Assembly (NCBI RefSeq): GCF_001517835.1
Contig: NZ_LOQG01000001.1
Span: 186,001-250,000 of the forward strand
From: Caviibacter abscessus
GTDB taxonomy: Bacteria; Fusobacteriota; Fusobacteriia; Fusobacteriales; Leptotrichiaceae
Direction: 5' to 3'
Length of the DNA stretch: 64,000 bases
Shown here: in pieces, positions 28,421-47,664 of the stretch
Numbering within the stretch: the stretch's first letter is position 1
Layout of the letters: each line of letters starts with the position of its first letter
Position numbers and translations under genes: made by a program
The notes under the pieces: model-generated
The model's input: only the letters and a program-made list of their open reading frames with translations
Databases searched by the model: none
Told to the model about the DNA's origin: nothing

Positions 28421-29128
28421 ATGAAAAATATATTCACATTAAATGAACTTTTGTGGCTTATATATATAATAGTTAATTATACATTTATATTAATCGCATA
28501 TAAAAAATGGGGAAAAGTCGGTATATTAATTTTTATCCCCCTATCAATAGTTGTTGCTAATATACAAGTAAATAAACTTATGACTATATTTGGTGTAGTT
28601 ACAACCATGGGAAATATAGCATATGGTGGAATATTTTTAATTGAAGATATCTTATCTGAAAATTATGGTAAACAATATGCGAAAAAAGTAATTACAATTG
28701 GATTTGCAACTATGATATTTATGACAATAATAATGAGTATTGCAATACACGTTAATGTTGCTCCTGAAGATACAGCTCAACCACATTTGGTTGCATTATT
28801 TGCACCACTTTATAGACTTACATTCGCTTCTCTTACTGCTTATGGTTGCTCTTCATTAGTTGATATTTACGCATACCAAGCAATAAGAAGCTTATGGCCA
28901 AGCTTTAAAAATATATGGATAAGAAACAATTTAAGTACAATACTTAGTCAAATAGTTGATAATGTTATTTTTACCCTTGTAGCTTTTGCTGGTATATATG
29001 ATTTTAAAATATTAATTAGTATTATGTTTTCAACTTACTTTTTAAAAGTTATTATTTCTACTTTAGATACTCCATTTGTATATATTGCAGCTTGGTGGAA
29101 AAAAGAAGGGAAAATTGAAGAATTTTAA
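28421..29128 (+). CDS. Queuosine-precursor transporter (YhhQ/VUT family)
   Basis: The 235-residue protein has about six membrane segments and the conserved VUT/COG1738 blocks: GNIAYGGIFLIEDILSENYG near 65-85, YAKKVI, ASLTAYGCSSLVDIYAYQ and ILSQIVDNVIFTLVAF. YhhQ in E. coli imports preQ0 and preQ1 for tRNA queuosine synthesis. The ATG follows AAAGGAGAATTAAAAA. The next gene, a radical-SAM-like protein, starts where this one ends (TAATG), so the two are translationally linked and probably act in one salvage route. Confidence 0.88.
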   Translation: MKNIFTLNELLWLIYIIVNYTFILIAYKKWGKVGILIFIPLSIVVANIQVNKLMTIFGVVTTMGNIAYGGIFLIEDILSENYGKQYAKKVITIGFATMIFMTIIMSIAIHVNVAPEDTAQPHLVALFAPLYRLTFASLTAYGCSSLVDIYAYQAIRSLWPSFKNIWIRNNLSTILSQIVDNVIFTLVAFAGIYDFKILISIMFSTYFLKVIISTLDTPFVYIAAWWKKEGKIEEF

Positions 29129-29832
29129 TGAATAGATATAGTAAAATAACTGATTATGTTAATAAAAGAGAAATTGTATTATTAAAAAGTCTTCCCTGTG
29201 ATTATGGGAAATGTGCTTTTTGCAACTATATTTTAGATAATTCTACTGATGAAAATGAAATAAACAATGTAAATATGGAAATTCTTAAAAACATAACCGG
29301 TGAATTTGGAGTATTAGAAGTTATTAATTCAGCTTCTGTATTTGAATTACCTATTTCTACTTTAGAAGAAATAAGACGTATAGTATATGAAAAAAATATT
29401 AAAATACTCTACTTTGAAGCATACTTTGGTTATGTTAAAAGACTTGATGAAATAAGAAACTTTTTTTCAGATATTGAAATTCGTTTTATTATAGGAATTG
29501 AAACTTTTGATAATAAATATAGAATAAAGACTTTAAAGAAAAATTTTTACTTAACAGATAAAATTTTTGAAAAAGTAAAACAAGAATATTATACTGTTCT
29601 ACTTTTAATTTGTACACAAGGGCAAACAAAAGAACAAATTCTAAATGATATAAATACAGGTTTACAAAATTTTAATATAACTACTATTAGTGTTTTTATA
29701 GACAACGGAACTAGTATAAAAAGAGATGAAAATCTTGTTAAATGGTTCATAAAAGAAATTTATCCAACAATAAAAAATAATGAAAAACTTGAAATATTAA
29801 TAGATAATAAAGATTTCGGTGTTTATTCATAA
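29128..29832 (+). CDS. Radical-SAM-like protein, candidate queuine salvage lyase (QueL-like)
   Basis: The 234-residue protein has three cysteines near residues 24-32 in LPCDYGKCAFCNY, a CX4CX2C spacing that departs from the usual radical-SAM CX3CX2C. Downstream blocks (ILYFEAYFGYVKRLDEI, RFIIGIETFDNKYRIKTLKK) fit a partial TIM barrel with a GIETFD motif seen in radical-SAM enzymes. It overlaps the queuosine-precursor transporter gene. In Clostridioides difficile a radical-SAM subgroup converts queuine to preQ1, so a similar role is a reasonable inference. No tgt or queuosine hydrolase gene is near. It could be another radical-SAM family. Confidence 0.6.
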   Translation: MNRYSKITDYVNKREIVLLKSLPCDYGKCAFCNYILDNSTDENEINNVNMEILKNITGEFGVLEVINSASVFELPISTLEEIRRIVYEKNIKILYFEAYFGYVKRLDEIRNFFSDIEIRFIIGIETFDNKYRIKTLKKNFYLTDKIFEKVKQEYYTVLLLICTQGQTKEQILNDINTGLQNFNITTISVFIDNGTSIKRDENLVKWFIKEIYPTIKNNEKLEILIDNKDFGVYS

Positions 29833-29850: not shown

Positions 29851-30621
29851 ATGAAAAAATTAGTATCTTGGAATGTAAATGGCTTTCGTGCTGTACTTAC
29901 AAAAGGATTTATGGAATTTTTAAAAAAGGAAAATCCGGATATTATTGGCTTACAAGAAATAAAACTTCAAGACGGTCAAATTGATTTTCCATTAGAAAAT
30001 TATTATACTTATTGGAATTATGCACAAAAAAAAGGATATTCAGGAACAGCTGTTTTTACAAAAGAAAAACCAATTAATGTTACTTATGGAATTGGAATAG
30101 AAGAACATGACACAGAAGGTAGAGTAATTACGCTTGAATACCCTACTTATTATTTCATAACCGTATATACTCCAAATTCAAAAACTGAACTTGAAAGACT
30201 TGATTATAGAATGATATGGGAAGATGAGTTTAGAAATTATTTAAATAAGCTTAATGAAAATAAACCAGTTATTGTTTGTGGAGATTTAAATGTAGCACAT
30301 AAGGAAATTGATTTAAAAAATCCAAAAACAAATACCAGAAGTGCTGGATTTACTATTGAAGAAAGAACAAAATTTACAAAACTTCTTGAAAATGGATATA
30401 CAGATACATTCCGATACTTTTATCCAGATAAAGAACAAATTTATTCTTGGTGGTCTTACAGAATGAGAGCAAGAGAAAAAAATACAGGCTGGAGAATTGA
30501 TTACTTCATAACTTCTAATAGTCTTAATTCTAATTTAATTGATGCTAAAATACTAACTGATGTTATGGGATCTGATCATTGTCCTGTTGAACTTATAATA
30601 AGTCTTGACAATTTATCATAA
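29851..30621 (+). CDS. xth: Exodeoxyribonuclease III (AP endonuclease)
   Basis: The 256-residue enzyme cuts abasic sites and removes blocked 3' ends in base-excision repair. The family motifs are complete: SWNVNGFRA, IGLQEIKLQ (metal-binding glutamate), TVYTPNS, GDLNVAH, RIDYFI and the catalytic GSDHCPVEL. The ATG follows AGGAAAGGGCTATGT. It is the likely downstream partner of Ogg2 and of the uracil-DNA glycosylases in this window. A tRNA promoter overlaps its last codons. Confidence 0.95.
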   Translation: MKKLVSWNVNGFRAVLTKGFMEFLKKENPDIIGLQEIKLQDGQIDFPLENYYTYWNYAQKKGYSGTAVFTKEKPINVTYGIGIEEHDTEGRVITLEYPTYYFITVYTPNSKTELERLDYRMIWEDEFRNYLNKLNENKPVIVCGDLNVAHKEIDLKNPKTNTRSAGFTIEERTKFTKLLENGYTDTFRYFYPDKEQIYSWWSYRMRAREKNTGWRIDYFITSNSLNSNLIDAKILTDVMGSDHCPVELIISLDNLS

Positions 30622-30656: not shown

Positions 30657-30740
30657 GCCTGGGTGGCGAAATGGTATACGCATCAGACTCAAAATCTGAC
30701 GGAGAAATCCATAAGGGTTCGAGTCCCTTCCTAGGCACCA
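30657..30740 (+). tRNA. tRNA-Leu (anticodon CAA)
   Basis: An 84-base class II tRNA with a long variable arm and encoded CCA; the anticodon arm is TCAGA-CTCAAAA-TCTGA and the acceptor GCCTGGG pairs with CCTAGGC. A protein-coding gene follows 26 bases later. Confidence 0.95.
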
Positions 30741-30766
30741 TTTTGTATATTATAAAGGAGAATAAA

Positions 30767-31561
30767 ATGTTATCACTTGAATTAACAGAAAAAGAACTAG
30801 AACAAGCTAATTATAACCCTGAAGCAATAAAAAATATACTTGTTTCAAGAGCTATATATAATGAAAGCTATAATTATGAATTTACTGAAGAACAACTTGA
30901 AGAAATTAAATATATAGAACAAAATGAGGCAGTTAGACTTTACATGAGAAAAACTGTTGAACCAAGATTACTTGTTACAGAAACAACAATAATTGATAAA
31001 TATAATGAAAATAAAAGCTACTTTGAATCACAAAACATATCTTTTTCTAAAGCTCATGACATTATAAAAAATCAACTTACACAAGAAATTAATTTTGGAT
31101 TAGAACAAGATTTAGTATACAATTTGGTCCACAACATGGAAGAAAGTGTTACTTTATCTAAACAAGACTTAGTATTTACTAAGGGAAATCCCGATTTAAT
31201 AAAATCTATTCTATTACAAAATCTATTAAAACAAGAAGCAATAAAAAATACTTTTTTTGAGGATAATGCTGATGAACTTGAAACAATAAAAAAAGAAATA
31301 AGACTTAAATATTACGCAGATATACTTTGTAGTAAAGATGTTAAAATAACAGAGGAAGAAGTTAGCAAATATTATGTAGATCATACTAAAGATTTTGAAA
31401 ATATGGATATTCAATATGCTTATTCTCAAATATCAACTTTCTTATTTCAAACAAAAGTAAATGAAAATATGAGCAAATATATAAAAGAAATAACTGATAA
31501 ATATGAAATTGATAAAAAGATTGAAAAATATAAAAAAGATGATGGAGCTGTTATTAACTAA
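30767..31561 (+). CDS. SurA-N-like protein without a PPIase domain
   Basis: The start is ATG 30767, preceded by AAAGGAGAATAAA; a longer reading runs back through tRNA-Leu and is not credible. The 264-residue protein has no signal peptide. It contains two similar alpha-helical units, each with an ITEEEVSKYY / VTETTIIDKYNE-type segment followed by a region like the SurA/PrsA N-terminal chaperone domain, but no parvulin isomerase domain. It may be a cytosolic chaperone, with trigger-factor-like use conceivable. It overlaps the trmB start by one base. The family call is tentative. Confidence 0.5.
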   Translation: MLSLELTEKELEQANYNPEAIKNILVSRAIYNESYNYEFTEEQLEEIKYIEQNEAVRLYMRKTVEPRLLVTETTIIDKYNENKSYFESQNISFSKAHDIIKNQLTQEINFGLEQDLVYNLVHNMEESVTLSKQDLVFTKGNPDLIKSILLQNLLKQEAIKNTFFEDNADELETIKKEIRLKYYADILCSKDVKITEEEVSKYYVDHTKDFENMDIQYAYSQISTFLFQTKVNENMSKYIKEITDKYEIDKKIEKYKKDDGAVIN

Positions 31562-32262
31562 TGATTAATTATAATGGGCAGGAACTTTGGACTTACTTTT
31601 TTAATAAGCCAAAAAGATATTACAATAAATATATGTTTGAAATGGTTGAATACCCAAATTATTTAATATTTTCAGGTGAAGAAATTAAAAATCTAAAAGG
31701 CAATTGGAATAATGTTTTCCAAAATGAAAATGGTATTTATCTTGAAATAGGATCAGGTAGCGGTAATTTCACTATTGAAATGGCTACTAAACATAAAGAC
31801 AAAAATTTTATTGGTGATGAACTAAGGCTTAAAAGACTTGTCTATTCTGCTAAAAAATCAGAAAAACGTGATTTAAAAAATATTAAATTTATAAGATATG
31901 ATGCTACTCATTTAAATGAATTTATAGCTCATGATGAACTTTCCGGTCTTTTTATAAACTTCCCTGATCCTTGGGAAGGTGAAGAACATAAAAGAATATT
32001 GTCAGAAAGCTTACTTAATACTTTAAGACCTCTGCTAAAAGACAATTCAAAAATATATTTTAAAACAGATCATCTAGATTACTATAACTCTGTCTTAGAG
32101 TTAATAAAAAAAACTGATAATTACAAAGTAATTTATCACACTGACGATTTACATAACACTGACTACAAACCAGAAAACATTAGAACTGAGTTTGAAAATT
32201 TATTTATTAATAAATTAAAAATAAGTATTAAATATATTGAAATTTTAAAATGTAAGGAATAG
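31561..32262 (+). CDS. trmB: tRNA (guanine-N7-)-methyltransferase
   Basis: TrmB makes m7G46 in the variable loop of tRNAs. The 233-residue protein has the SAM-binding LEIGSGSGNFTIEMA near 61-75, ELRLKRLV, and the diagnostic NFPDPWEGEEHKRIL block near 143-157 with the catalytic aspartate. A C-terminal helix pair is normal. It begins on the last base of the SurA-like gene and ends two bases before the propeller-UDG gene, so the three form one unit. Confidence 0.93.
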   Translation: MINYNGQELWTYFFNKPKRYYNKYMFEMVEYPNYLIFSGEEIKNLKGNWNNVFQNENGIYLEIGSGSGNFTIEMATKHKDKNFIGDELRLKRLVYSAKKSEKRDLKNIKFIRYDATHLNEFIAHDELSGLFINFPDPWEGEEHKRILSESLLNTLRPLLKDNSKIYFKTDHLDYYNSVLELIKKTDNYKVIYHTDDLHNTDYKPENIRTEFENLFINKLKISIKYIEILKCKE

Positions 32263-32264
32263 TA

Positions 32265-33881
32265 ATGGAACTGATACTTAAAGAAAAAATAAATTTAGAC
32301 AATAAAATTAAAGATTTTACGCTAAATCCATTAAATAATACTCTTATCACTATTGGTAAAGGTCTAACTTTCTTTAAGAAAAATTTTTCTAAAGATAAAC
32401 AAATTATAAAAAACATAAATAATTGTGAAACAATTAAGTATATAAAAGAAGAAAGTCAACTTTTTACTTCTTCTTCTTTTTATATTATAAGCAGTAATAA
32501 TTATATATACAAATGCGATAGTTCAAGTAAAAAAGTTCTTGATTGTATATTTAAACCGAATTTTAACATTGAATCAATTAATGTTACAAATAAAGGTAAA
32601 ATAATATATATTAGCAATAATCACCTTTATTCATACGACAGTTTTAGCAAAAAAGAAATAAAAACATATATTGGTGATGAAAGAGCCAGCTTATCTATAT
32701 TTATAATCAATGAAAATATCATTGTAAAAAGCAGAGAATTTGGTAAAAATGACAATATTATAAAAATATTTTACAGCAAAAATTTATCAGAAATATTTTC
32801 AATTCATTCTGAAAATAATCATACCTTTGTAAAACTAATAGGAACAAGATATTTTGGAGCAACTGCTAACGGTCTTATTGAAATTTGGGACGCAATATCA
32901 AATGAACTTATAGATGCAAAGAAAATTTGTGATTCACGTATTACATATATTGAAAATGATGACGAATGGTTTTATTTTGGAACATCACGTGGAGAATTAA
33001 TCGTAACAAATGACAAATTAAAAGTTGTTAAAACTATTAATTGGATAAAAAGTGAAATTAGAAAAATTTACTATTTTGATGATACTCTTTATGTTTTATG
33101 CGAAAATAATCAAATACTTATTTTTTCATTATTTGATGAAGATAATATTACAATAATAAATGATTTTATGAAAAAATATAAAATACACGAAGATTATAGA
33201 GAATTTTTTAATATAAATAGAGTTACTGAAATTGAAAACTTTATAAAAAAACTTGAAACTTCAAATGCAACAATTTATACACCTAGTAAAAAAAATATAT
33301 TTAGAGCTTTAAATACTCCTATTTCAAATAAAAAAGTTTGTATATTAGGAAAAGAACCATATAATAATTATCCTGCTATTGCAACAGGATTAGCTCTTGA
33401 AATAAAAGAAAAATCATGGTCAGAAAAAAACATGAATACTTCTGTTAAAAATATATTAAAATTAATATACTATTCATATAAGAATAAATTTAAAGAATTA
33501 GAAGACATAAAAACAGATATAAACAAAGGTAAATTTAAAATTTTGCCTCCAGATAAACTTTTTAAATCGTGGGAAAAACAAGGTGTGTTACTTTTAAATG
33601 CTACTCTAACCGTATTAGTTAATAATACAGGTTCTCACAAAAAGTTTTGGTCATCATTTACAAATGATTTATTAGAATATATCAGTACGAAAAACATGAA
33701 TATTATATATCTACTATGGGGTAAAGATGTAAAACCATTTGAAAAACATATATTAAATGGTGAAACAATATTCCATAATCACCCTGTTAGTGCGGGAAAT
33801 ATTGAAAATCCAAATGATTTTTTCAATGGATTATCGTTTATTAAAACAAAACATATAATAAATTGGTTAGGAGGAGAATAA
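32265..33881 (+). CDS. Beta-propeller / uracil-DNA-glycosylase-like fusion with altered motifs
   Basis: The 538-residue protein has two parts. Residues about 1-300 are a series of beta-rich repeats with WD40/PQQ-like character (for example ATANGLIEIWDAI and FYFGTSRGELIVTND). Residues about 325-538 align with uracil-DNA glycosylase: GKEPYNNYP near 362 replaces the canonical GQDPYH, GVLLLNATLTV near 440 keeps the substrate-binding Asn, GSHKKFWSSFT, LLWGKDVKPFEKHI, and NHPVSAGN near 505 replaces HPSPLSA. So the catalytic Asp is Glu, the following His is Asn, and the leucine-loop motif is shortened, while His506 remains. A canonical ung is also present (46990-47664). The protein may be a DNA-binding relative or a glycosylase of altered activity. 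Confidence 0.75.
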   Translation: MELILKEKINLDNKIKDFTLNPLNNTLITIGKGLTFFKKNFSKDKQIIKNINNCETIKYIKEESQLFTSSSFYIISSNNYIYKCDSSSKKVLDCIFKPNFNIESINVTNKGKIIYISNNHLYSYDSFSKKEIKTYIGDERASLSIFIINENIIVKSREFGKNDNIIKIFYSKNLSEIFSIHSENNHTFVKLIGTRYFGATANGLIEIWDAISNELIDAKKICDSRITYIENDDEWFYFGTSRGELIVTNDKLKVVKTINWIKSEIRKIYYFDDTLYVLCENNQILIFSLFDEDNITIINDFMKKYKIHEDYREFFNINRVTEIENFIKKLETSNATIYTPSKKNIFRALNTPISNKKVCILGKEPYNNYPAIATGLALEIKEKSWSEKNMNTSVKNILKLIYYSYKNKFKELEDIKTDINKGKFKILPPDKLFKSWEKQGVLLLNATLTVLVNNTGSHKKFWSSFTNDLLEYISTKNMNIIYLLWGKDVKPFEKHILNGETIFHNHPVSAGNIENPNDFFNGLSFIKTKHIINWLGGE

Positions 33882-33884
33882 TAT

Positions 33885-35345
33885 ATGAGTAAAATTATTT
33901 TAGAAGGTTTAACTTTTGATGATGTTTTATTAATACCACAAGCATCTGATGTATTACCGCATAAAGTTTGTTTAAAAACAAATTTGACAAAAAATTTACA
34001 ACTTAACATTCCTATTTTAAGTGCAGCTATGGATACTGTTACTGAATCGCAACTTGCTATTGCTATAGCAAGAGAAGGTGGTATTGGATTTATTCACAAA
34101 AATATGACTATTGAAAGACAAGCAGAAGAGGTATCAAAAGTTAAGCGTTCAGAAAGTGGAATGATCACAAATCCAATAACACTTGGAGTTGAAGCTACTT
34201 TAAATGACGCTCATAAACTTATGAGTAAATACAAAATATCAGGATTACCCATAATTGATGATGAAATGAATTTACTTGGAATTATTACTAATCGTGATTT
34301 AAAATATCGTGAAAATTTAGATGAACTTGCAGTTAATGTTATGACTAAAGAAAATTTAATAACTGCAAAAATAGGTACTACTTTTGAACAGGCAAAAGAG
34401 ATATTACTTAAACATAGAATTGAAAAATTACCAATAGTTGAAAATGGTAAATTAAAAGGATTAATAACTATAAAAGATATTGATAATGTATTAAATTATC
34501 CTAATGCATGTAAAGACAGTAAAGGTAGACTTCGTGTTGGAGCTGCTGTAGGTATAGGAACCGATACAATAGAAAGAGTTAGAGCTTTAGTTGAAGCTGG
34601 TGTCGACATTGTTACTGTAGACTCTGCTCATGCCCATTCTAAAGGAGTTATTGATAAAGTTAAAGAATTAAGAGCTACTTTCCCAAACTTAGATTTAATA
34701 GGTGGAAATATTGTTACTAAAGAAGCTGCCAAAGACTTAATTGACGCTGGTGTTAATGCAGTTAAAGTTGGGATTGGACCTGGTTCAATTTGTACTACTC
34801 GTGTTATTGCAGGTGTTGGTGTTCCACAAATTACTGCCATAATGGAAGTTTATGAATATTGTAAAGATAAAAATGTTTGTGTAATTGCAGATGGAGGAAT
34901 TAAATTATCTGGAGATATAGTTAAAGCCATTGCTGCCGGCGCTGATTGTGTAATGCTTGGTGGATTACTTGCAGGTACACAAGAAGCTCCTGGAGAAGAA
35001 ATAATTTATAACGGAAGAACATTTAAAACATATGCAGGTATGGGGTCTATTTCAGCAATGAAACGTGGAAGTAAAGACAGATATTTCCAACTTGAATCTG
35101 CTACTGATAAATTAGTACCTGAAGGTATTGAATCAATGGTTCCATATAAAGGAAAAATAAAAGATACTTTATTCCAACTATGTGGAGGTCTTCGTTCAGG
35201 AATGGGGTACTGTGGTGCACATTCAATAAATGAATTAAAAGAGAGTAGAAAATTTGTAAGAATAACAAATGCTGGACTTAAAGAAAGTCACCCACATGAT
35301 GTAATTATTACAAAGGAAGCTCCAAATTACACTTCAATAAAATAG
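33885..35345 (+). CDS. guaB: Inosine-5'-monophosphate dehydrogenase
   Basis: GuaB oxidises IMP to XMP, committing purines to guanine nucleotides. The 486-residue protein has the full family layout: N-terminal barrel strand ([10 protein letters not shown]), two CBS domains (about 93-200), the NAD site, and the catalytic loop [18 protein letters not shown] near 298 with the active-site cysteine. [10 protein letters not shown] and the YAGMGS flap follow. It starts three bases after the propeller-UDG gene and ends where ligA begins. Confidence 0.96.
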
Positions 35346-35347
35346 TG

Positions 35348-37357
35348 ATGAAAATGAATAAAGATTATGAAAATTATCTAAATTTAAAAAAAGAAATTGA
35401 AAAATATAATTATCATTATTATGAAAAAAATGAAAGTTTAATTTCAGATAAACAATTTGATGATTTATTAAAAAAATTAGTTGAAATTGAAAAATTGCAT
35501 CCTGAATATATTGATGAATCCTCTCCTACTGAACATGTGGGTGGATACGTTAATGAAAAATTTTCAAAAGTTAAGCATAATGCAGCTATGTTAAGTTTAG
35601 CTAATACATATAACATAAATGATATAAAAGATTTTAATAATAGGATTCAAAAGTTATTAAATTCTAATAATAAAATAGAATATGTTCTTGAGTTAAAGCT
35701 TGATGGAATAAGTATAAGTATAATTTATGAAAATGGTATACTTGTTAGAGCTGTAACACGTGGTGATGGTATTTATGGAGAAGATGTTACAGAAAATGTA
35801 ATGCAAATAAAAAATATCCCTCACAAACTAAATAAAAATATAAATATTGAAGTACGTGGTGAAATTGTATTTCCTATTTCTAAATTTAATAAATTAAATG
35901 AATTAAGAGAAATAAATGGAGAACCTGTTTTTGCAAATCCTAGAAATGCTGCTTCAGGTACTATAAGACAGCTTGATATGAATGTTGTAAAAGAAAGAGA
36001 TTTAGATTGTTATTTATACTATGTTGTAAATTCTCAGGATTTTGGTATTAAAACTCATATGGAGAGCATTAATTTATTAAAAGACTTAGGATTTAATACA
36101 ACTGGTGTATTTGAAATATATAATGATTTCTCTGATATTGAACATGCAATTGAAATTTGGAATACAAAAAGAAAAAAATTGGATTATGAAACAGATGGTT
36201 TAGTTTTAAAAATAAATGATATTACTTTATATGAAAAATTAGGTTATACTGCTAAGAGTCCAAGATGGGCTATTGCATATAAATTTAAACCTGATCAAGC
36301 GATTACCAAAATAATTTCTATTGATTATCAAGTTGGTAGAACAGGCGTAGTTACTCCTGTTGCGAATTTTGAACCTGCAAATTTATCAGGTTCAGTTGTA
36401 AAACGTGCTTCTTTACACAATTTTGATGAAATTTATAAAAAAGATATAAGAATTTTTGATACTGTGGTTGTTGAAAAAGCTGCTGAAATTATACCTCAAG
36501 TAATAAATGTTTTATTTGAAAAAAGAACAGGTATAGAAAAAAGAATTGAAAAACCCAAATTATGTCCAAGTTGTGGATATGAATTACATTCATTTGAAAA
36601 CATAATAGCATTAAAATGTATAAATCCTTATTGTCCTGAACAATTAACACGACTTATTGAATATTTTGTTTCAAGAGATTGTATGAATATAAAAGGTCTT
36701 GGAACAAAAATAATAAGAAAACTTATTGATTTAGGGTTAATAACTAATATCCTTGATTTATATAATTTAAAAAATCTTAAAGATGAATTAATACAAATTG
36801 ATAAAATGGGCGAAAAAAATGTTGAAAATTTACTTAACAGCATTGAAAAAAGTATAAATAATTCTTTTGATAAAGTAATTTATTCTTTAGGAATTAATTA
36901 TGTTGGAAAAACTACTGCTTCTTTAATATGCGATAGATACCAAAATATTGATGATTTAATAGACGCTGATGTCAAAGCTTTATCTCAAATAAAAGGTGTT
37001 GGAGAAAAAGTTGCAAATTCTGTATACTCATATTTTAGAAATGCAAATTCAATTAGAATAATTAATGGACTTAAAGAAATTGGTTTTAATCTAAAAAATG
37101 TCAAACAAGAAAAACTGTTTAACAATAATATATCAGGTAAATCTTTCTTAGCAACTGGTACATTTACTAATTTTAAAAGGGAAGATATAAAAGAAATTAT
37201 AAATAAGTATAACGGTGTATACTTAAGTGCTGTTTCAAAAAATTTAGACTACTTAATTGCTGGAGAAAAAGCAGGTTCTAAACTTGAAAAAGCCACTAAC
37301 TTAGGTATAAAAATTTTAACAGAAGATGAATTTTTAATATTATTAGGAAAAAATTAA
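35348..37357 (+). CDS. ligA: NAD-dependent DNA ligase
   Basis: LigA seals nicks in replication and repair using NAD. The ~669-residue protein has the adenylation motif KLDGIS (Lys about 115), the OB-fold, the four-cysteine zinc finger (CPSCGYE and CINPYCPEQ), helix-hairpin-helix repeats and a C-terminal BRCT domain. The first ATG (35348) lies just after the guaB stop, with no clear ribosome site; a GTG at 35345 and an ATG at 35354 are alternatives. It overlaps the next gene as TAATG. Confidence 0.95.
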   Translation: MKMNKDYENYLNLKKEIEKYNYHYYEKNESLISDKQFDDLLKKLVEIEKLHPEYIDESSPTEHVGGYVNEKFSKVKHNAAMLSLANTYNINDIKDFNNRIQKLLNSNNKIEYVLELKLDGISISIIYENGILVRAVTRGDGIYGEDVTENVMQIKNIPHKLNKNINIEVRGEIVFPISKFNKLNELREINGEPVFANPRNAASGTIRQLDMNVVKERDLDCYLYYVVNSQDFGIKTHMESINLLKDLGFNTTGVFEIYNDFSDIEHAIEIWNTKRKKLDYETDGLVLKINDITLYEKLGYTAKSPRWAIAYKFKPDQAITKIISIDYQVGRTGVVTPVANFEPANLSGSVVKRASLHNFDEIYKKDIRIFDTVVVEKAAEIIPQVINVLFEKRTGIEKRIEKPKLCPSCGYELHSFENIIALKCINPYCPEQLTRLIEYFVSRDCMNIKGLGTKIIRKLIDLGLITNILDLYNLKNLKDELIQIDKMGEKNVENLLNSIEKSINNSFDKVIYSLGINYVGKTTASLICDRYQNIDDLIDADVKALSQIKGVGEKVANSVYSYFRNANSIRIINGLKEIGFNLKNVKQEKLFNNNISGKSFLATGTFTNFKREDIKEIINKYNGVYLSAVSKNLDYLIAGEKAGSKLEKATNLGIKILTEDEFLILLGKN

Positions 37358-46989: not shown

Positions 46990-47664
46990 TTATATATTTT
47001 CAATTTGCCAATTAATTGGCTCTTTACCTAATTTTATCAAAATTTCATTTATTTTTTTAAAATGATTACAACCAAAAAATCCACGACTAGCAGATAATGG
47101 ACTTGGATGTGGAGCTTCAAGTATAAAATGTTTAGGATTTGTTATTAACATTTTTTTATTTCTTGCATTTGCACCCCATAAAACAAATATTACTGGCTCA
47201 TTTCTATCATTTAAGTAAGAAATTATACTGTCTGTAAATATTTCCCATCCTCTGTTTTTATGTGAATTTGCCTCGTGTGCTCTTACGGTAAGTGCCGTAT
47301 TAAGTAACAATATTCCTTGATTAGCCCATGAAATTAAATAACCATTATTTGGAATATAGCAACCCAACTCCTGGTTTAATTCTTTATACATATTAAGTAA
47401 TGATGGTGGTATTGCAACATTAGGTTTTACTGAAAATGCCAGTCCATGTGCCTGATTATCATCATGGTATGGATCTTGACCTAAAATAACTACTTTTGTA
47501 TCTTTATAAGTTGTTAATTTTAAAGCATTAAAAATATCATTCATATGTGGAAATATCTTATAATTTGAATATTCTTTTTTTAGAAACTCTCTTAGAGTTA
47601 AATAATATTTTTTTGGAAATTCATCTTTTAATATATCGTCCCAATCGTTATTTAGTTTAACCAT
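46990..47664 (-). CDS. ung: Uracil-DNA glycosylase (family 1)
   Basis: Ung removes uracil from DNA. The 224-residue protein has all canonical motifs: GQDPYHDD near residue 61 with the catalytic aspartate, [23 protein letters not shown] and [10 protein letters not shown] with the catalytic histidine. It stands alone between the ascorbate operon and the element region. It is the standard counterpart of the altered UDG-like domain encoded at 32265-33881. Confidence 0.96.

Follow-up and report, generated by a model that had tools for sequence, protein, structure and literature searches.

Ung is usually regarded as a near-universal repair enzyme. The locus considered here lies in a stretch of 64,000 nucleotides from Caviibacter abscessus (contig NZ_LOQG01000001.1, positions 186,001 to 250,000; hereafter the window). 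It raises the question of what an additional uracil-DNA glycosylase (UDG)-like domain with altered catalytic motifs, joined behind a beta-propeller in one protein, might be doing in an organism that already possesses a standard ung gene. A preceding sequence-only reading had described the propeller and the UDG-like domain as sharing one uninterrupted frame, and this description is borne out by a 538-residue open reading frame with no internal stop codons, whose two parts have WD40-like and UNG folds. The gene and the neighbours relevant to the argument are the following (window coordinates):

29851..30621, plus strand: exodeoxyribonuclease III / AP endonuclease gene, upstream neighbour (NCBIfam xth above cut-off)
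31561..32262, plus strand: trmB, directly upstream of the fusion gene (Pfam Methyltransf_4; position kept in two related genera, g4 and g5)
32265..33881, plus strand: propeller-UDGL fusion gene, 538 aa (uninterrupted open frame; same architecture in 16 Leptotrichiaceae genomes)
33885..35345, plus strand: guaB, directly downstream of the fusion gene (Pfam IMPDH)
35345..37357, plus strand: ligA, NAD-dependent DNA ligase (name given by the sequence-only reading; g4 and g5 have orthologues of 64-66% identity with gene order kept)
46990..47664, minus strand: canonical housekeeping ung, 224 aa, with GQDPYH, LLLN and HPSPLS (NCBIfam ung above cut-off; TIGR00628 270.8 bits, above cut-off)

The ATG of the fusion gene lies 2 bp after the trmB stop codon, and a Shine-Dalgarno-like GGAGGAG of guaB overlaps the 3' end of the fusion gene. 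Gene order around the fusion is the same in g4 and g5, except that guaB is missing at that position in g4, in agreement with the earlier proposal of a chromosomal, non-mobile gene between trmB and guaB-ligA. A mobile or phage origin was rejected: no propeller match was found in plasmid and viral collections, and phage proteins resemble the UDG half only weakly. A conserved operon with the repair genes exoA and ligA was also considered and rejected, as the arrangement is limited to close genera and other genomes carry the fusion in different neighbourhoods. Two further observations concern this region. A tRNA-Leu(CAA) gene (30657-30740) overlaps the start of an open reading frame called at 30671-31561, which encodes a PPIase-like protein and whose true start probably lies further downstream, near the Met of MLSLELTEKELEQ. 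At 29128-29832, a 234-residue protein with a Cys-rich CDYGKCAFC motif and no Pfam matches adjoins a queuosine precursor transporter and is possibly radical-SAM-like.

An assembly artefact confined to one genome, which the sequence-only reading had named as grounds for refutation, is ruled out. Among 60 relatives searched (each species represented by one genome, in several cases a MAG), the full fusion without stop codons was found in 16 genomes representing 9 of the 11 Leptotrichiaceae genera, with 43-54% identity to the window protein and the window itself (100%) counted among the 16. A search of the open-access literature, a scope outside which most subscription journals lie, returned nothing relevant on a UDG-propeller fusion or a D64E mutant. 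Within the fusion gene, the following features were delineated:

32265..33149, plus strand: N-terminal WD40-like beta-propeller, residues 1-295 (Pfam below cut-off; AlphaFold2; Foldseek)
33165..33878, plus strand: C-terminal UNG-fold domain of the UDGL clade, residues 301-538 (phmmer; AlphaFold2; Foldseek; tree)
33348..33365, plus strand: motif 1, GKEPYN, residues 362-367, with Glu364 in place of the catalytic Asp (alignments)
33396..33398, plus strand: Leu378, where E. coli UNG has the uracil-stacking Phe77 (alignments)
33588..33599, plus strand: LLLN, residues 442-445, with the uracil-recognising Asn123 of E. coli UNG kept as Asn445 (alignments)
33780..33800, plus strand: motif 3, HPVSAGN, residues 506-512, with His506 (E. 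coli UNG His187) kept and the consensus HPAICGN lost (alignments)

The two halves were searched separately, as the sequence-only reading had suggested. Residues 320-529 matched solved family-1 UNGs in phmmer with E 2e-16. Against the NCBIfam ung models the UDG half gave E 6e-27 and 94.9 bits, below the cut-off of 162, and against Pfam UDG the window copy gave 18.1 bits, below the cut-off of 24.3. When modelled alone with AlphaFold2, this half is predicted to adopt the UNG fold (pLDDT 90.7). Its listed Foldseek matches are UNG structures (TM 0.59-0.75, E ~1e-12 to 1e-10), which sustains the earlier domain assignment. The motifs GKEPYN and HPVSAGN, the retained LLLN and the motif-3 His all read as first reported. 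With respect to the family-1 signatures, GQDPYH is replaced by GKEPYN and only the His-Pro of HPSPLS is kept, while motif 1 does not match the GEAPG type of family 4 and UDGX, being of the GxDPY type instead. The roles of the UNG active-site residues are those given in PMC5387724. The canonical ung in the same window supports the earlier view that the fusion is not the housekeeping enzyme.

The propeller half matches Pfam WD40_like weakly (E 6e-7, 29.5 bits, below the cut-off of 40). AlphaFold2, with three full-length sequences as input, predicts a multi-bladed, probably seven-bladed, propeller fold of about 26 beta strands (mean pLDDT 85, pTM 0.54), and the top Foldseek matches are WD40 propellers (WDR5, COP1, RACK1 and others; E ~1e-11). 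Because of the pTM of 0.54, the placement of the two halves relative to each other is not predicted. Across 98 Fusobacteriota genomes, the full-length propeller is confined to Leptotrichiaceae, where it is present in every well-sampled genus, and only one partial, weak match was found elsewhere. Two genera, g3 and g11, have the propeller alone (~290 aa) without the UDG half; all of them have Ung, and a search 3' of the propeller-only genes found no UDG remnant. Since these genera retain the propeller alone, its function outlives the loss of the UDG half, and the modelled fold is consistent with what is most likely a cytosolic protein-binding adaptor or platform with a role of its own. In g3, a gene directly upstream of the propeller-only gene (L085 9061-9600, minus strand) encodes a protein of 177-179 aa; its N-terminus is signal-like, it has paralogues and no Pfam matches, and it was rejected as a general partner, because only g3 has this gene beside the propeller. 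Searches yielded no other partner for the propeller. In a single genome (G021:C1:1686414-1687276), the propeller-only gene is represented by two overlapping frames, which reflect either a frameshift or an error in the sequence.

The UDG half has close relatives in 32 genomes from 17 genera, and in some genomes of other families this half exists alone (245-249 aa). Distant relatives, annotated as uracil-DNA glycosylase, are carried on Firmicutes megaplasmids. In the tree, all Fusobacteriota members of this group, the UDGL clade, stand apart from the canonical Ungs, with uneven support in the deeper clades. As the fused sequences group together in one clade, with a standalone gene as sister (G033; support 0.96), a single fusion event at the base of Leptotrichiaceae would be the simplest account. 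Several standalone UDGL genes of Fusobacteriaceae (L069 4290-4718 and L065-L068) overlap or nearly touch an upstream NUDIX hydrolase gene, and the two may be co-translated.

Standalone and many fused members of the clade share the motifs G(M/K/Q)DPY, GLAFEV, LLLN and NHPAICG, and intact members score 28-38 bits against Pfam UDG, above the cut-off. These members retain the positions of E. coli UNG Asp64, Tyr66, Phe77, Asn123 and His187 and differ from UNG at Gln63, His67 and the PSPLS loop; the usual motifs G(M/K)DPY, GLAFEV, LLLN and HPAICG thus indicate that the uracil-pocket residues are retained. The alterations noted by the sequence-only reading are accordingly real, but part of them is the norm of the clade, namely Lys or Met for Gln63, the lack of His67 and an HPAICG-type motif 3. 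The Lys in the window motif 1 and the absence of HPSPLS are therefore clade traits. Compared with the UDGL consensus, the window copy shows Asp replaced by Glu, Phe by Leu, and AICG by VSAG.

The distribution of the two enzymes is close to mutually exclusive. With ligA as the species marker, a tree was built for 30 genomes that the authors selected at one or two per genus. Intact UDGL occurs without Ung in 12 of them and Ung without intact UDGL in 17; a single genome combines the two, and every genome has at least one. The association is supported by Fisher's test (1.5e-7) and by Pagel's test of correlated change (LR 31, p 3e-6; 6e-5 when G015, with Asn changed to Ser, is counted as not intact), although these p-values are post hoc, the exclusion having been spotted in the data before testing. 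The signal weakens within Leptotrichiaceae only, where Pagel's p is 0.025 (28 genomes), 0.004 without G023 and 0.067 with G015 likewise treated as not intact. Of the independent pairs on supported branches, four are concordant, none is discordant and one is a tie.

The deepest lineages of the ligA tree are UDGL-plus and Ung-minus, and no canonical Ung was found in the standalone-UDGL genomes by a phylum-wide search with the window Ung and a TIGR00628 check; among 25 genomes, TIGR00628 is above cut-off only in that of the window. Fused genomes of the Asp type are without canonical Ung, the exception being G013, in which an intact UDGL and Ung are both present. Genomes with a Glu-type fusion have Ung, except for G023, in which the Glu form is present and Ung was not found in an assembly that is 87% complete. 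G015 has no Ung, yet its UDGL carries Ser for the key Asn. The genome G090, with an intact standalone UDGL, contains a broken canonical ung (L141 1842-2277, minus strand), in which the N-terminal 100 codons are followed, after a gap of ~80 missing codons that include the Asn motif, by an HPSPLS tail in another frame. Since intact UDGL members stand where canonical Ung is missing, this pattern points to uracil removal. Multiple acquisitions of Ung were considered as the cause of the parallel decay; the tree suggests them, but an AU p of 0.068 does not reject one clade.

Most genomes, with or without Ung, also encode a divergent PF03167 protein of ~190 aa, and a few have a strong one; in a few other Fusobacteriota the strong matches may represent family 4. 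In Leptotrichiaceae, a ~185-aa UDG-superfamily protein of this kind is encoded beside a conserved ychF-like GTPase gene (L131 1480-2025, minus strand; L135 1423-1986, plus strand). In two Leptotrichiaceae copies, GEAPG and HPS motifs are not recognisable, which argues that this protein does not explain the exclusion between Ung and UDGL. The PF03167 matches of the window genome are Ung and the fusion only, the ~185-aa protein not being found there, and in G003 (99% complete) the fusion is the only match.

These observations make it probable that UDGL substitutes for Ung as an alternative uracil-DNA glycosylase, that the window copy is redundant and degenerating, and that the propeller is retained for a function of its own. 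From the conserved residues and from the replacement of Ung, we infer that intact UDGL performs uracil removal, and the UDG domain of the window protein has most likely decayed to a remnant with weak or no activity on a still-needed propeller. In such a scenario, an ancestral family-1-like UDGL would have done the job of Ung in many Fusobacteriota, and, at the base of Leptotrichiaceae, it would have been attached to the C-terminal end of a cytosolic WD40-like propeller. Where intact, it would be the sole Ung-type enzyme in the genome, flipping out and hydrolysing uracil as in UNG, with catalysis by the motif-1 Asp, the LLLN Asn and the motif-3 His. In the window copy, Glu for Asp and Leu for the pocket Phe would weaken catalysis, a loss that would be tolerable because Ung is present in the same cell. 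Several facts sit less easily with this explanation: G013 has both enzymes, G023 has the Glu form without a detected Ung, G015 lacks Ung and has Ser for the key Asn, and a divergent PF03167 protein is present in most genomes and a strong one in a few.

The manner in which the domain erodes is where another reading must be weighed, namely that in Glu lineages it still binds AP sites, or bases that are flipped or damaged, but makes no cut, while the propeller recruits partners or signals to them. Glu occupies the motif-1 Asp position in eight fused copies, including that of the window, at several scattered positions of the tree, and no Asp was lost to any other residue, a regularity that is not what simple decay predicts and that speaks for a non-cutting reader. 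The frame is open in all copies, both the LLLN Asn and the motif-3 His persist in the window copy, and strong purifying selection acts on the Glu pair G008/G016 (UDG-half dN/dS 0.11), again unlike simple decay. Across close fused pairs, dN/dS is 0.07-0.20 for the propeller and 0.11-0.26 for the UDG half, which indicates that neither half is a pseudogene, and the constraint that persists in some Glu lineages keeps the reader idea alive. Even so, erosion is faster at active-site positions than elsewhere: at near-invariant positions defined on the other 23 sequences, the Glu group shows losses at 50/184 active-site and 50/360 other cells (p 3e-4, the cells not being independent). AICG is lost in all eight Glu copies. 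Phe77 is replaced in five of them, by Leu in the window copy, G007 and G016, by Ile in G009 and by Ser in G006. In G006 the LLLN Asn and the motif-3 His are gone as well; the highest dN/dS, 0.26, belongs to the UDG half of G015 compared with this most decayed copy, while two genera have deleted the UDG domain entirely. Because the window-specific changes belong to lineages that also carry Ung, redundancy and decay is the simpler reading, and a non-cutting reader is regarded as unlikely. A composite view appears doubtful to us, in which the sole Ung-type enzyme of Streptobacillus and other Ung-lacking Leptotrichiaceae is targeted by the propeller and the domain of Ung-containing relatives such as the window organism, with an acid retained at the Asp position and always as Glu, reads damaged DNA without cutting it.

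The sequence-only reading had suggested a sensor or inhibitor, or a glycosylase for another base; neither is the first choice here, as intact UDGL members keep the uracil pocket where Ung is missing. A glycosylase acting on hypoxanthine, oxidised or phage-modified bases, perhaps in the manner of Brig1, could draw on motifs 1 and 3 being unlike those of UNG and on the precedent of Brig1, an antiviral DNA glycosylase showing that UDG-fold enzymes have switched base before (PMC11078745). It is nevertheless quite improbable, given that intact members keep the uracil-selective pocket of Tyr66, Phe77 and Asn123 and replace Ung phylogenetically; a defence role was likewise rejected, PADLOC giving no match and the neighbours being housekeeping genes and not a defence island. 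That only the propeller matters, the UDG half being a passenger that neither has nor ever had a role linked to it, would suit a propeller that is found in all well-sampled Leptotrichiaceae genera and stands alone in g3 and g11. This view has very little probability in our estimation, as Streptobacillus and other Ung-lacking genera keep the active site of the UDG half nearly invariant, with a dN/dS of 0.12-0.15 for this half within Streptobacillus.

If UDGL does replace Ung, a divergent relative of Ung appears to substitute for it across a phylum, with whichever copy is redundant decaying in parallel, and in one family this glycosylase and a propeller form a single protein, an arrangement not found described in the open-access literature. 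The prediction would then be that species possessing only the fused enzyme rely on it to repair uracil, and that the window copy has little or no activity. The label "Ung-lacking" may also be mistaken for some of the genomes that carry it.

In comparison with known systems, the window protein resembles Brig1 in having the UDG superfamily fold and in being an extra glycosylase besides Ung; however, Brig1 homologues are often located in defence islands, with no propeller mentioned (PMC11078745), whereas the window gene has no defence context. The propeller half is like the WD40 propellers WDR5, COP1 and RACK1 in predicted fold and strand count, but differs in its ~10% sequence identity to them, its Pfam score below cut-off, its restriction to one family and its bacterial origin. 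With family 1 UNG (Ung, TIGR00628), the window domain shares the fold, the motif order, the LLLN Asn and the motif-3 His, and it is 30-40% identical to Ungs from its own phylum. It differs in reading GKEPYN where Ung has GQDPYH and HPVSAGN where Ung has HPSPLSA, in having Leu for Phe77 and an insertion that separates motifs 1 and 2 further, in scoring below the family cut-offs and in carrying the propeller in front. Standalone UDGL proteins (Ilyobacter polytropus WP_013388740.1; megaplasmids of Aneurinibacillus, Virgibacillus and Alkaliphilus) fall in the same tree clade as the window domain at 36-48% identity and have the insertion in common with it, the Fusobacteriota members showing an NHPAICG-type motif 3; unlike the window gene, they have no propeller, and their catalytic Asp and pocket Phe are intact.
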